Source: Ruminococcus sp. AF46-10NS (lineage in GTDB: Bacteria; Bacillota; Clostridia; Lachnospirales; Lachnospiraceae). From it: a stretch of 10,968 nt of DNA. The stretch is taken from the NCBI RefSeq assembly GCF_003474435.1, contig NZ_QRNF01000066.1:1-10968 (forward strand). Reading direction: 5' to 3'. A program made the translations under genes and the position numbers. Each line of letters begins with the position of its first letter. The first letter of the stretch is position 1. Under the pieces are notes generated by a model, which saw only the letters and a list, made by a program, of their open reading frames with translations, was not told the origin of the DNA and did not search any database. Below, piece after piece: positions 1,188 to 6,332 of the stretch.

Positions 1188-2003
1188 ATGATTATTATTG
1201 GCGAAAAGATCAATGGTTCCATTCCTTCTGTGGCAGAGGCCATTGCAAAAAGAGATGCGGAATTTATCAAAGACCGTGCAAGAAAACAGGCAGAGGCCGG
1301 AGCAACATTTATCGATTGTTGCGCATCTGTTCCGGAAGAAGAGGAAGTTGAAACACTGAAATGGATGATCGACTGTATTCAGGAAGTAACAGATCTTCCG
1401 ATTTCTGTGGACAGCCCGAGTGCGGATGTACTTGTACAGGCGTATAAATTCTGTAAGAGACCGGGACTTTTCAATTCTGTATCCGGTGAAGGTGACAAGA
1501 TTGATAAGATTTTTCCTGTTATGGCACAGGAAGAGAATAAGAAATGGGAAGTTATCGCTCTTCTCAGTGATGACACCGGAATCCCGAAGAATGCAGCAGA
1601 CAGGCTTCGCGTATTCGATAAGATCATGGAGAAAGCTAAGGAATATGGAATCTCCCCATCCAGGATCCACATTGATCCGCTGGTAGAGATGCTTTGTACA
1701 TCAGAGAATGGAATTGAGACAAATATTGAAGTTATCACTTCTGTTCGTGAGCAGTATCCGTCCATTCATATTACAGCAGCGATCAGCAATATTTCTTTCA
1801 ACCTGCCGGTTCGTAAGCTGATCAATCTTGGATTCATGGTACTGGCTATGAATGCCGGTCTGGACAGTGGAATCCTTGACCCGACAAACAGAGACATGCT
1901 TGGTCTTATTTATGCAACAGAAGCTCTTCTTGGAGAAGATGACTACTGTATGGAATACATCGGAGCATACAGAGAAGGTCTGATCGGTCCGGTAAAGAAA
2001 TAA
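1188..2003 (+). CDS. Methyltetrahydrofolate-type corrinoid methyltransferase (MT2 / AcsE-MtgA-like)
   Basis: A 271-aa protein forming a single pterin-binding TIM barrel of the dihydropteroate synthase-like superfamily. Recognisable blocks are IIIGEKING (2-10), the GATFIDCCAS strand (38-47), SVDSP (73-77), NSVSGE (96-101), HIDPLVE (161-167) and SNISFNLP (200-207), in the order seen in methyl-THF:corrinoid methyltransferases. Such enzymes move a methyl group between a methylcorrinoid protein and tetrahydrofolate. The length fits AcsE/MtgA-type enzymes (~260-270 aa) and is far below methionine synthase. The start is set by AGGAGGTG at 1174-1181, 6 nt before ATG. The next gene is a corrinoid protein 149 nt downstream, the expected partner; that gap holds no recognisable riboswitch. 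Direction of transfer and substrate pathway are not visible because no MT1 is present. Confidence 0.9.
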   Translation: MIIIGEKINGSIPSVAEAIAKRDAEFIKDRARKQAEAGATFIDCCASVPEEEEVETLKWMIDCIQEVTDLPISVDSPSADVLVQAYKFCKRPGLFNSVSGEGDKIDKIFPVMAQEENKKWEVIALLSDDTGIPKNAADRLRVFDKIMEKAKEYGISPSRIHIDPLVEMLCTSENGIETNIEVITSVREQYPSIHITAAISNISFNLPVRKLINLGFMVLAMNAGLDSGILDPTNRDMLGLIYATEALLGEDDYCMEYIGAYREGLIGPVKK

Positions 2004-2152: not shown

Positions 2153-2785
2153 ATGAGTAAAATGGATGAAGTTTTTGATCTGGTAGTAAGAGGAAAAGCT
2201 AAACTGATCGGCGCAGCAGTTCAGGAAGCACTTGATGAGGGGAATGCAGCACCAGATGTTCTTGATAACATGATCAAGGCTATGGGTGTTGTAGGTGAAA
2301 GATTTAAAAATAATGAGATATTCGTTCCTGAGATGCTGGTAGCAGCAAGAGCTATGAAGAAAGGTGTAGATGTTCTGAAACCGCACCTTGCAGGCGGAAG
2401 CGCAGGCGTAGCTGGAAAAATGATCATTGGAACAGTAGCAGGCGATCTTCATGATATCGGTAAAAACCTGGTAGCTATGATGATCGAGAGTGCCGGATTC
2501 GAAGTAATTGATCTTGGTGTAGATGTTCCGATCGAGAAATTCGTTGAAGCAGTACGTGAGAATCCGGATGTTAAAGTTGTAGGTGTATCTGCACTTCTGA
2601 CAACAACCATGCCGGCTATGAAAGATACAGTTGAAGCTCTTAATAAAGAAGACTTCCGTAAAGATATCAAGATCATGGTTGGCGGAGCTCCTATCACTCA
2701 GGAATTCGCAGATGAGATTGGCGCAGATGCTTACACAGCAGACGCAGCAACAGCAGCTCAGGTTGCAAAACAGCTTGTAGCATAA
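2153..2785 (+). CDS. Methyltransferase corrinoid (cobalamin-binding) protein
   Basis: A 210-aa protein with the two-domain plan of MtaC/MttC/MtbC-type corrinoid proteins. Residues ~1-85 form the helical methionine-synthase-like cap, and ~88-210 the Rossmann-like B12 domain. The cobalamin signature DLHDIGKN (98-105) contains D98, H100 (lower axial Co ligand) and G103, followed by the usual SALLTTT (146-152) and GGAP (177-180) blocks. It carries the methyl group between a substrate-specific methyltransferase and the MT2 encoded just upstream. The start follows AGGAGGT at 2138-2144, 8 nt before ATG. A strong terminator lies 40 nt after the stop. Substrate class (methylamine, methoxyaromatic, betaine and so on) cannot be read from this protein alone. 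Confidence 0.94.
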   Translation: MSKMDEVFDLVVRGKAKLIGAAVQEALDEGNAAPDVLDNMIKAMGVVGERFKNNEIFVPEMLVAARAMKKGVDVLKPHLAGGSAGVAGKMIIGTVAGDLHDIGKNLVAMMIESAGFEVIDLGVDVPIEKFVEAVRENPDVKVVGVSALLTTTMPAMKDTVEALNKEDFRKDIKIMVGGAPITQEFADEIGADAYTADAATAAQVAKQLVA

Positions 2786-2825
2786 TGTAAATGCAGATGA
2801 AATAATAGTAACGGTCATAAAAATG

Positions 2826-2870
2826 ATCCGCAGAGACTATGAAAATAAAGATAGTTTCTGCGGATTTTTT
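2826..2870 (+). terminator. Intrinsic terminator after the corrinoid protein gene
   Basis: A 15-bp stem with one G-U pair (2826-2840 with 2851-2865) and a 10-nt A-rich loop is followed by a run of six T. It separates the MT2-corrinoid unit from the activator gene, so the activator probably has another promoter or depends on read-through. Confidence 0.93.
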
Positions 2871-2885
2871 ATAATTAAGATATGT

Positions 2886-3046
2886 TCGCAGGGGTTACTG
2901 TTCACTGGCAATGTTCCGCGAGGTGTTTTTTGTGAGCGAAGGTCACAGAAAACCCGAGACATACTGCGCGAATTTATGCAATTAGCATAAATTCTGTGCA
3001 TCGCGAAGCGTGTTACTGAGAACGGAGTGAACAGTAACTCGCAGGG
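2886..3046. mobile_element. MITE-like element with terminal inverted repeats and 8-bp direct flanks
   Basis: The body, 2894-3038 (145 bp), begins with GTTACTGTTCACT and ends with its exact reverse complement (3026-3038). TCGCAGGG directly abuts both ends (2886-2893 and 3039-3046), as a target-site duplication would. Inside are two further hairpins: 2925-2935 with 2943-2953 (11 bp, one T-G pair, loop GCGAAGG), and 2965-2979 with 2985-3000 (one bulged T, loop AATTA). The right end can also fold alone, pairing GTTACTG at 3012-3018 with CAGTAAC at 3032-3038. No protein is encoded. The size, ends and flanks fit a non-autonomous transposon relic; a structured RNA or regulatory repeat is the alternative. 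The rest of the 2871-3240 gap shows no gene. Confidence 0.75.
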
Positions 3047-3240
3047 TTTATCAGTAATAGTTTGTGATGCGTTTTTATGGGAAAAGGTTGTAGATATATG
3101 TTAGAAAATGGATGTATAAGTTAAAACTTTACTTAATGGAGACAAATGGTTAAACTGGTAATAGTGAGAAAATCAGAACAGTAATGAAAACTAAGGCAGT
3201 AGAATACCTGTCTGAAAATATGGGCAGAAATATAAAGTAC

Positions 3241-3248
3241 AGGGGTGG
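3241..3248 (+). promoter_or_regulatory. Ribosome binding site that decides the start of the activator gene
   Basis: The only SD-like sequence near the start is AGGGGTGG. It overlaps the in-frame GTG at 3245, so that codon is unlikely to be the start. It lies at a normal distance upstream of the in-frame TTG at 3254. Confidence 0.6.
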
Positions 3249-3253
3249 CGTAT

Positions 3254-5020
3254 TTGAATACATACAAGGTGTTTTTTACAAAAGAAAAAAAAGAAGTTTC
3301 GGTGCAGGAAGGTACAACTGTACTGGAAGCTGAGAGGATAGCAGGGTTATCCCCGGATGCACCATGCGGGGGTGCCGGAAAATGTGGAAAATGTACCGTA
3401 AAGATCAACGGCTCTGTGGAAAAAGCCTGCCAGATAAAGATTACGGCAGATCTTGAAGTAGAAACAATTGAGCAGGCATCGGAACACAGGATTCTTGTAA
3501 AAGGAACAGAGAGAGCAGTAGCTTTTCAGCCGGAGCTGAAGATCCTGGACATTGAGATACAGCCATGTAAAGTTGGGGAAAACAGCTCAGACTGGAAAAG
3601 ACTTTGCGAAGCTGTAAATAAGAAACTCCGGGAAAAAGGCAGCAAGGCAGACCGGGTGTTCCGGCCGAAGCTGGAAATACTTCCGGTAATCAGCCATCTT
3701 ATGAAGGAAAAAGGAGGAACGGCCAGAGTAATTGTAAGCGGTGATGAAATTCTGGAGCTGAAAGAACAGGACGACAAACCGGTACTGATGGCTGCGTTTG
3801 ATATTGGAACAACAACCGTAGCCGGGTATCTTTTGGATGGAAGAACAGGAGAACAGCTGGCAACAGCAAGTGCTTTGAACGTACAGACAGAATATGGTGC
3901 GGATGTTATCATGCGTGCCAATTATTCTCTGGAGCATGGTGCAGAGGAACTTTCTGCGTGTATCAGAGTGCTTTTGAAAAAACTGATCCGTACACTTTGT
4001 AAAGAAGCAGGAAAAGAGCCGGAGGATATCTATCAGGTCAGTGTTGTGGGAAATACCTGCATGCATCACCTTTTCCTGGGAATCGTTCCGGATTCTCTTG
4101 TTCATGCACCATATAATCCGGCGATCAGTCATGGCCTTACATTCCCGTCAGAAAAATTCCGTCTGGGAATCCATCCGGGTGGACAGCTGATCGCGCTGCC
4201 TGTCATTGCAGGATTCGTAGGAGCTGATACTGTTGCCTGCCTTCTGGCTGTAAATCTTGAAGAAGAGAAAAAGATGACTCTGATGATCGATATTGGAACA
4301 AATGGCGAGATCGTTCTTGGAAATTCAAAACGCCGCATTGCGTGCTCTACTGCGGCAGGTCCGGCTTTTGAGGGCGCAAAGATCGCCTGTGGTATGCGAG
4401 GCGCGGAAGGTGCTATTGAGCATGCACATCTTGAAGAAGGAAGACTTGTATGCAAGGTAATTGGAGACGGCAAGCCAACGGGAATCTGCGGCTCCGGACT
4501 GATCGATATTATTGCAGGACTTCTGGAAGCAGGAGTGATCGATGAGACAGGAAGGCTGATGGAAGGACCGAGAGTTGTTCAGATCGATGACAATACGAAA
4601 ACAGCATATCTTCTGGCAGGTCCGTCTGAATCAGGTAATGGAAAACCTGTATATTTAAGTCAGAAAGATATACGTGAAGTACAGCTGGCTAAGGGGGCTA
4701 TTGCTGCGGGAATCGCCCTTCTGGCGGAGCAGATGGGAATTACTCTGGAGCAAATCGAGCAGGTTTATATTGCAGGAGCTTTTGGCAACTATATGGATCC
4801 TGCAGGGGCATGCAGGATCGGCATGCTTCCGGGAATCCTGAAAGACAGGATCATTCCGGTCGGAAATGCAGCAGGAGAAGGTGCAAAGCTGGCTCTCTTA
4901 AATAATGAAGAACTTGAACGCGCGGAGCGTCTTGCCCGCCATACAGAATTTCTGGAGCTGGCAGCACTGCCTGAATTCCAGGATGAATTTGTAGATCAGC
5001 TGGAATTTCCGGAAGAATAA
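3254..5020 (+). CDS. RACo-type reductive activator of corrinoid protein (2Fe-2S / ASKHA ATPase, DUF4445)
   Basis: A 588-aa protein from TTG; the in-frame GTG at 3245 would give 591 aa but lacks a usable RBS. An N-terminal ferredoxin-like domain has cysteines 38, 44, 47 and 59 (C-X5-C-X2-C-X11-C), the plant-type 2Fe-2S pattern. A linker domain follows, then an ASKHA-fold ATPase part with AFDIGTTTVAGY (~182-193), a second phosphate-binding block MIDIGTNGE (~344-352), ICGSGLID (~411-418) and YIAGAFGNYMDP near 505. RACo proteins use ATP to drive one-electron reduction of inactive Co(II) corrinoid to Co(I). This differs from methanogen RamA, which carries two C-terminal 4Fe-4S clusters. It fits the corrinoid protein encoded upstream. 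A terminator and a mobile-like element separate the two, and no convincing promoter is seen in 3047-3240. Confidence 0.93.
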   Translation: MNTYKVFFTKEKKEVSVQEGTTVLEAERIAGLSPDAPCGGAGKCGKCTVKINGSVEKACQIKITADLEVETIEQASEHRILVKGTERAVAFQPELKILDIEIQPCKVGENSSDWKRLCEAVNKKLREKGSKADRVFRPKLEILPVISHLMKEKGGTARVIVSGDEILELKEQDDKPVLMAAFDIGTTTVAGYLLDGRTGEQLATASALNVQTEYGADVIMRANYSLEHGAEELSACIRVLLKKLIRTLCKEAGKEPEDIYQVSVVGNTCMHHLFLGIVPDSLVHAPYNPAISHGLTFPSEKFRLGIHPGGQLIALPVIAGFVGADTVACLLAVNLEEEKKMTLMIDIGTNGEIVLGNSKRRIACSTAAGPAFEGAKIACGMRGAEGAIEHAHLEEGRLVCKVIGDGKPTGICGSGLIDIIAGLLEAGVIDETGRLMEGPRVVQIDDNTKTAYLLAGPSESGNGKPVYLSQKDIREVQLAKGAIAAGIALLAEQMGITLEQIEQVYIAGAFGNYMDPAGACRIGMLPGILKDRIIPVGNAAGEGAKLALLNNEELERAERLARHTEFLELAALPEFQDEFVDQLEFPEE

Positions 5021-5633: not shown

Positions 5634-6332
5634 AAAGAATGAAGAGGCATGAACAGGTTAGAGAAATTTTTCGGTTCTATTTCTGCGAAAGGCTGACATA
5701 GATTTTTGGTAGCTGTATAGCTGTGGGAAATGCGCATTCCCGGCTTTGTCCATTGCAGATGGCTGCGGTGGGAAGAGCGAACAGTAATCGGAAACCTGAA
5801 GTTTTAGTCTTTGGCAGAAAGGCGGTATTTTTATGGGATGTGGAAAATTTCATGAATTTCATGATTGCAGTGAACAGAGTGATCGTATGGAAATGCTGCG
5901 GATCTTTCAGGTGGCAGCAGTGTTCTTCGGAATTCTTATGGAAAAAATCTCCCGTGTGAAAACTGCAGGAAGAAAAATGATCGGAAGAGGACAGGCATGG
6001 TATGCAGCTGCCTGGGCAGATTGGAGATGTGAGACAGGTTATGGAAGTGTGCGAAGTGCGGCAGATGCAGGCACAGGACATAATGGTGTGACTGCATCAG
6101 GAACGGAAGTGTGCAGAAATAGATGGGGATATGCCTGCAGGGGACGAAAAACTGTAACGGATAAGGTTGATGTGGGCAATAATCCGAGAGATGGAAATGT
6201 GTGTTGGAAGTATTTGAGTAGAGGGCTGTCAAGATGCAAACTGCGGAACAGGAAGTGCATGTCTGTGTATTTGTAAATGGAGGATTAATCAGTGCCGGAA
6301 AACCGGCAGAGTTTTCCGGCCTGAGCGGAGCT
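5634..6332. other. Long gap without a supportable gene; possible decayed coding sequence
   Basis: About 700 nt lie between the DUF2284 gene and the minus-strand phosphoesterase. The longest plus-strand frame (5833-6276, 147 aa) starts plausibly (MGCGKFHEFHDC) with a weak AGGCGG upstream. Its second half is rich in Trp, Arg, Cys and Gly and resembles out-of-frame translation. From about 6002 another plus frame reads MQLPGQIGDVRQVMEV before stopping, so one or more frameshifts in an old gene are possible. A tandem 9-bp repeat (ATTTCATGA, 5847-5855 and 5856-5864) and a 10-bp palindrome AATGCGCATT (5729-5738) are present. I recognise no family here. Confidence 0.35.
6294..6320. terminator. Inverted repeat downstream of the phosphoesterase gene
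   Basis: GCCGGAAAAC and GTTTTCCGGC form a perfect 10-bp stem with a 7-nt loop, 12 nt beyond the minus-strand stop codon. Neither strand has a U-run after it, so if it terminates transcription it is not a standard intrinsic terminator. Confidence 0.45.

Follow-up and report, generated by a model that had tools for sequence, protein, structure and literature searches.

Among the short non-coding MITEs of bacteria, the Correia, RUP and ERIC elements have inverted ends, duplicate their target (2 bp, TA) and are mobilised in trans. The element described here is likewise short and non-coding and has inverted ends, but it differs from them in its 8-bp target duplication, and none of the three is known to have a core that covaries and persists while the ends change. 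The ISs of the IS66 family have ends of the type GTAA and possess accessory genes, tnpA and tnpB. The candidate mobiliser proposed below resembles this family in its PF03050 domain, which scores above the Pfam cut-off, but it falls under the NCBIfam cut-off and has ends that begin with GTTAC instead of GTAA; the MITE itself, unlike an IS66 element, has no gene. For two IS66 members one report gives an 8-bp target duplication (PMC3281130), the length also observed for the candidate. Retrozymes share with the present element the combination of a non-autonomous mobile element and a conserved structured RNA, but they are described as plant retrotransposons with a hammerhead ribozyme (PMC4918200), whereas here we are dealing with DNA transposition in bacteria and with an RNA that gave no Rfam ribozyme match.

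The element occupies positions 2894-3038 (+ strand) of a 10,968-nt stretch of Ruminococcus sp. AF46-10NS (contig NZ_QRNF01000066.1), which is referred to below as the window. Direct reading of the sequence revealed everything that the preliminary description had reported of its outline, namely a length of 145 bp, perfect 13-bp inverted ends (the left one, GTTACTGTTCACT, at 2894-2906 on the + strand, and the right one, its exact reverse complement, at 3026-3038, - strand) and, immediately outside, an exact 8-bp duplication (TCGCAGGG, at 2886-2893 and 3039-3046). The end motif, with up to two mismatches allowed, occurs three times in the window against 0.14 times expected from shuffles; the third occurrence, which has two mismatches, is at 5776-5788. 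The element is not overlapped by any ORF of at least 80 aa, in agreement with the claim that no protein is encoded. The RNA fold of the 161-nt region including both duplications has an energy of -67.2 kcal/mol (z = -6.5; equalled by none of 200 shuffles), and the opposite strand, folded as DNA, gave z = -5.1 against its shuffles.

The first 210 nt of the window are the 3′ end of a 23S rRNA gene, which is followed by seven tRNA genes (295-957) and, directly after them, by a gene module. The left neighbour of the element is an inverted repeat followed by T residues (2818-2873), which does not appear in the results of a terminator scan confined to loops of 3-8. According to the preliminary description the element could re-wire the module; a consensus scan of 2780-3300 gave no terminator-like site and one promoter-like site, with 2.0 expected. 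Downstream lies a gene for a 591-aa protein (3245-5020). The neighbouring genes putatively encode a corrinoid protein, a methyltransferase and an activator, names that come in part from the preliminary description. The 591-aa protein has matches in Blautia schinkii MSK.6.26 (99% identity), a member of the Lachnospiraceae, and in B. luti MSK.16.34 (86%). The former strain carries an identical element at the same site, in surroundings that are 98% identical.

A search with the element (E up to 10) yielded 51 matches in B. schinkii and 13 in B. luti. Nine of the former, including the window's own site, and one of the latter were nearly full-length, and these copies were flanked by differing 8-bp repeats. 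The element also matched 16 of the 64 genomes of the genus Blautia at E 1e-8 or better; the best 13 candidates per genome were scored, which means that the copy numbers are to be read as "at least". From 134 loci we extracted 71 distinct full copies. These loci comprise the best matches and 40 picked by hand, and the fractions with target duplications are therefore not representative of whole genomes: the 8-bp flanks were exact repeats in 43 copies and had one mismatch in 9 (52/71 with at most one), with more mismatches in the other 19, among them a copy (L011) whose 8-bp repeat is shifted by one extra base. All 43 exact duplications differ from one another, and their A+T content is 68%. The same table contains 11 rows classed as partial, of which at least L026 resembles a chance match inside a gene. 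L130 and L131, from two different genomes, share an insertion of approx. 56 bp on the loop side of hairpin P5; this insertion itself contains palindromes.

Two empty sites were spotted by their joined flanks, fortuitously, among the loci in hand. A single CTGTGAAA in genome G018 (L199) corresponds to a site filled by the element in B. schinkii (L013), and a single AATTCTTG in G011 (L073) corresponds to a filled site of G018 (L072), where the two flanking repeats are mismatched in 2 of 8 positions. The preliminary description had proposed a search for sites with a single TCGCAGGG; B. luti does lack the element at the corresponding place (L002), but its spacer is too divergent to reveal one, and empty sites were thus obtained for two other copies and not for that of the window. 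The same description had named a single-copy element, or copies with shared flanks, as observations that would speak against transposition; the element proved to be multicopy, with flanks that differ among the copies. Taken together, terminal inverted repeats, a duplication of fixed length that differs from site to site, empty sites, numerous copies without a transposase gene and an autonomous relative with similar ends make it close to certain that 2894-3038 is a transposed MITE, as had been suspected.

Copies of the element also undergo deletion. At one site, bordered in both genomes by the same GAATTCTG repeats, the element is 145 bp long in G053 (L040) and 60 bp long in B. schinkii (L032), where the 85 bp enclosed by two CGCG copies, which lie at the base of the folded core, have been lost; eight further facing end pairs in the end-motif lists are exactly 60 bp apart. 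Smaller scars of 27 bp (GTTACTGAGAACGGAGTGAACAGTAAC type) are flanked by 8-bp duplications that are exact in L195 and L214 and have one mismatch in L197 and L206 and two in L200, while a 23-bp scar (L210) has an exact one. The 23-27-bp scars apparently originate from a deletion of the MITE interior, extending from the left GTTACTG to the inner direct copy of this heptamer (3012-3018, + strand) or to its vicinity; such an event between the two heptamers would yield the 27-bp scars of L195, L197, L206 and L214. The third hairpin, claimed earlier for the right end, is real (GTTACTG at 3012-3018 pairs with CAGTAAC at 3032-3038), and the role of the inner GTTACTG as a deletion endpoint would account for it more simply. 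Decay by deletion at the hairpin bases, leading to remnants of 60 and 27 bp, is seen directly at one site and is presumed for the others.

The GTTAC-type ends and the 8-bp duplications led us to consider IS66 as the family of the mobiliser. A Pfam search revealed the IS66 transposase domain in 11 of 22 chosen genomes, at 30 loci among the 32 places listed. Eight of these loci, whose open frames span 514-592 aa, form a divergent clade, and at all eight at least one end of the form GTTACT[GT]TTCA was present; at the remaining 22 no facing end pair was found with up to two mismatches. When one protein of the divergent clade was used as a query, 16 of the 397 genomes of the family matched. Ends were sought at 11 of the 19 loci from this family-wide search (those other than L311-L318): both were found at nine, one at L303, which lies at a contig end, and none at L306. 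The resulting table of 12 copies with both ends, which omits the one-end copies L280, L291, L292 and L303 as well as L306, comprises elements of 2.0-2.4 kb with GTTAC..TTCA on both sides. Their end sequences (GTTACTGTTCA, GTTACTTTTCA, GTTACCATTCA or GTTACAGTTCA) are the same on the two sides, and an exact 8-bp duplication borders 6 of the 11 testable copies, one of the 12 starting at a contig end. Five proteins scored 71.8, 64.4, 90.4, 82.3 and 71.6 bits with DDE_Tnp_IS66 (PF03050; cut-off 23.1), and the NCBIfam IS66 equivalog gave 143.8 and 137.1 bits (cut-off 180); we use the name IS66-type because the former cut-off was passed and the latter was not. The one upstream ORF that was examined (100 aa, in L293) had no Pfam match.

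The MITE and the IS66-type ISs have the length of the duplication and the first 11-12 end bases in common. The autonomous IS with the same ends that was to be sought has been found with regard to these bases, though not over all 13. End variants run in parallel in the two groups: GTTACTTTTCAC occurs in a MITE (L182) and an IS (L307), and GTTACCATTCAC in another MITE (L175) and another IS (L308), the matching variants being located in different genomes. No subterminal similarity was seen between the MITE and the ISs beyond the 11-12 end bases, and none of the eight IS66-type loci searched contained a copy of the core. Copies without an exact duplication occur in both groups (28/71 for the MITE, 5/11 testable ISs). 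Judging from the end bases and the duplication length, it is likely that an IS66-type transposase moves the MITE family, which fits the earlier claim that a transposase encoded elsewhere is required. The core (26 genomes) and the IS66-type transposase (16 genomes) co-occur in two of the 397 genomes, with approx. 1.05 expected by chance, and the IS66 domain gave no match in B. schinkii MSK.6.26 at E 1e-10, although this genome contains a 226-bp deletion remnant that has IS66-type ends and flanks with two mismatches in 8 positions. In view of the missing domain in B. schinkii and of the low co-occurrence, the MITE may be a legacy of past transposition activity in many of its hosts.

Another family, IS256 (PF00872, matched in 6 of 15 genomes), was rejected as a source of the mobiliser: in the 9 of 25 loci tested, no end pair with an exact 8- or 9-bp duplication was found within 400 bp. 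Inspection by eye of the lists of MITE-type end pairs 0.7-3 kb apart gave none in G001, G002, G011 and G018; these lists allowed one mismatch per 13 bases, and IS66-type ends diverge after base 11.

The two interior hairpins that had been claimed were located at 2922-2955 (P4) and 2966-2999 (P5), both on the + strand. They are enclosed by a short closing stem, P3, in which CGCGA (2917-2921) pairs with TCGCG (3001-3005), and are separated by the single strand GAGACATACT (2956-2965), of which GAG is nearly invariant among the aligned copies. P4 is flanked by conserved GAGGTG and CCCGAG motifs, and P5 is formed by GCGCGAA...TTCTGTGC. According to the structure model, the GAGACATAC strand is expected to be unpaired and the arms of P4 and P5 paired. 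The folding and covariation analysis of the copies that had been recommended was performed with 35 of the 71 copies, sharing less than 96.5% identity with each other (Blautia set). In this alignment 97.9% of the cells were paired (29.7-55.8% when the pairing was slid), and 64 cells were doubly changed in comparison with 17.9 in shuffles, a value reached by none of 500; such cells are not independent events. Two of the five measures were weak in this set, namely the number of pairs with a double change (8 against 5.5, reached by 10/500 shuffles) and the number of pair types (23 against 21.2, reached by 73/500).

An alignment-free comparison, in which each hairpin arm was folded with its own or a foreign partner, gave -10.5 against -5.2 kcal/mol for P4 (36 distinct hairpins), where the foreign arm was equally good in 88 of 1030 tests, and -9.5 against -4.2 for P5 (13 distinct arm pairs, after the exclusion of 7 of the 71 copies, six of them miscut by the pattern and one with a short hairpin). 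Covariation shows one preserved secondary structure in the interior, made up of P4, P5, the conserved junction motifs and, in near relatives, P3, whose stem sequences turn over by compensatory change.

A model of this core without the ends, applied with strict filters and with the best 9 candidates per genome scored, matched 26 of the 397 genomes of the family. Of 29 core loci inspected, a sample that includes repeats of earlier copies or of one another, 18 combine inverted ends with a duplication of 8 or 9 bp (up to one mismatch). In the divergent relatives the ends have drifted and P3 is absent; both hairpins are kept, together with motifs like CGCGAGGTG, CCCGAG and TGTGCAT, and the base of P5 has changed from G-C to C-G in many copies. 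The arm comparison gave -8.5 against -4.3 for P4 and -15.3 against -7.7 for P5 in 17 and 18, respectively, of 20 divergent copies; some P5 cuts were ragged, and, as these copies were found with the core model, the comparison is not blind here. In a wider alignment of 43 matches, 24 of 26 pairs were doubly changed (12.0 in shuffles) and all five measures lay above all 500 shuffles, with the qualification that this alignment is fitted to the model and contains, besides copies in decay, an antisense match of the window. Rfam 15 gave no match to the core in the window at the gathering score, and nothing overlapping the core in four loci at E up to 10. On balance, these results favour selection on the core as a structured RNA.

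Many MITE ends are occupied by a second IS. It belongs to the IS4 family, since its transposase (L150) scored 157.5 bits with the NCBIfam IS4 model (cut-off 115); relatives of this protein in G063 share 36% identity with it. The ends of the IS are CAATGTCATTAACTTAAG. In L156, away from any MITE, it is bordered by a 10-bp duplication. Subgroup IS4 is characterized by ends of the form -AATR--------WTW and by repeats of 10-13 bp (PMC2266710); on this basis CAATGTCATTAACTTAAG fits subgroup IS4 better than IS231, a name that we considered and dropped, though the repeats observed here are 9 and 10 bp long. A 345-bp unit of G016 (L055:1437-1781) contains IS4-type sequence within MITE-type ends and has an exact 8-bp duplication, which suggests that the outer ends are able to move the DNA they enclose. 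L148, from position 1430, has likewise MITE-type outer ends and an IS4-type interior.

The account that we regard as probable combines movement of the MITE in trans by a divergent IS66-type transposase with the retention of its core as a structured RNA. Insertion with an 8-bp target duplication has taken place at many sites, as their sequences show. The MITE ends would be recognised by a transposase with the DDE_Tnp_IS66 domain, and the + strand would be transcribed and act as RNA. This RNA would most likely serve the upkeep of the element itself, e.g. as a ligand of a host or transposition factor, or by rendering insertions beside genes tolerable. The copies decay through deletions at the hairpin bases. 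A competing mobiliser, suggested by L141 and L150, is the IS4-family IS, as it adjoins so many copies: 17 of its 30 distinct ends abut MITE-type ends at a fixed point (14 from the outer side and 3 from the inner; loci L155, L157, L161, L162 and L240-L269). However, this IS has ends of its own, and in L155 and L161 (both G063) it is nested in a MITE end with its own 9-bp duplication, taken from that end; in L161 the outer 8-bp duplication of the MITE is still intact around it. These nested duplications identify it as a guest rather than the mover, and we consider its role as mobiliser highly improbable. It is also improbable, though less so, that the core is a host regulatory RNA, comparable to a 5′ leader, which was spread by transposition and kept where useful, e.g. 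in front of the 591-aa gene. When genes were called crudely around 55 sites, 35 of 51 downstream neighbours at a distance of up to 500 bp had the same orientation as the core (p = 0.011), and convergent genes enclosed 3 of 47 sites. Moreover, the G018 copy of L072, absent from G011 (L073), precedes by 45 bp a gene for a protein that has 234 of 271 residues identical to the product of window positions 1188-2003; a module of this kind has thus been hit elsewhere as well. Two results speak against such a host function: upstream neighbours are oriented either way about equally often (27 to 24 of 51, p = 0.78), and the sites are polymorphic among close genomes. The gene calls are also error-prone: at the window's site in B. 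schinkii, the antisense frame of the upstream gene was mistaken for the left neighbour, and at a minimum L168 and L194 seem to represent a single site present in two genomes. The orientation of the neighbours gives a slight indication of transcription through the core.

The most serious objection to an RNA function concedes that the MITE is real but regards its interior as a by-product of DNA structure, in which template switching or palindrome correction preserves the likeness of the arms. The length and near perfection of the arms agree with this, as do the deletions at the hairpin bases, which point to structures that arise, or are traversed, in the course of replication. However, the junctions CGAGG, CCCGAG and TGTGCAT remain nearly constant while the stems change, and the wobble pairs are distributed unevenly: G-U was counted in 54 cells of 12 pairs and A-C in 8 cells of 5 pairs. 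As these counts would be exchanged on the opposite strand, the + strand looks like the one selected as RNA; the core also folds better as RNA on this strand in 50 of the 71 copies. The 54 cells do not represent 54 events, since 40 of them come from two positions, and at one of these the alignment register is uncertain for the B. schinkii group. One main position is G-U in 28 of the 35 copies of the Blautia set (A-U in 6, G-C in none) and C-G in 3 copies of the wider set. We judge the DNA by-product to be unlikely, though clearly less so than a host leader, and favour a core that is a structured RNA cargo maintaining itself. A broader version of this preferred reading, in which a transposon lineage extends through the Lachnospiraceae with the two-hairpin RNA as its constant part, while the ends, and presumably also the IS66-type transposases, have changed, is put forward tentatively; we hold it to be somewhat doubtful.

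In the literature covered, from which most subscription journals are absent, no title or abstract opening among the papers listed refers to the element, and the 12-base end sequence had no match there. Eleven faecal contigs deposited in GenBank as 'Bacteriophage sp.' match the element, two of them over most of its length, and four such contigs (L061-L064) contain the MITE or its ends. A phage origin was nevertheless rejected: the exact 27-base core motif had 0 matches in IMG/VR, and the 'Bacteriophage sp.' records are probably bacterial DNA in virome records. The search of plasmids gave one weak match (E = 2).

The new part of this element is its interior, an undescribed folded core that matches no Rfam family. 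MITEs are usually regarded as barely more than two ends, and here it is the core that keeps its motifs and shape despite the drift of the ends. The analysis also offers an IS66-type partner, an ordered series of decay products and a second IS that lands in the MITE ends, and it may help in the annotation of intergenic repeats in Blautia. If the broader version of our reading is correct, the RNA would itself be the selfish unit, recruiting transposition or rendering the insertions harmless or useful. The persistence of the core makes the family a testable case of an RNA that subsists on transposition in common bacteria of the gut.
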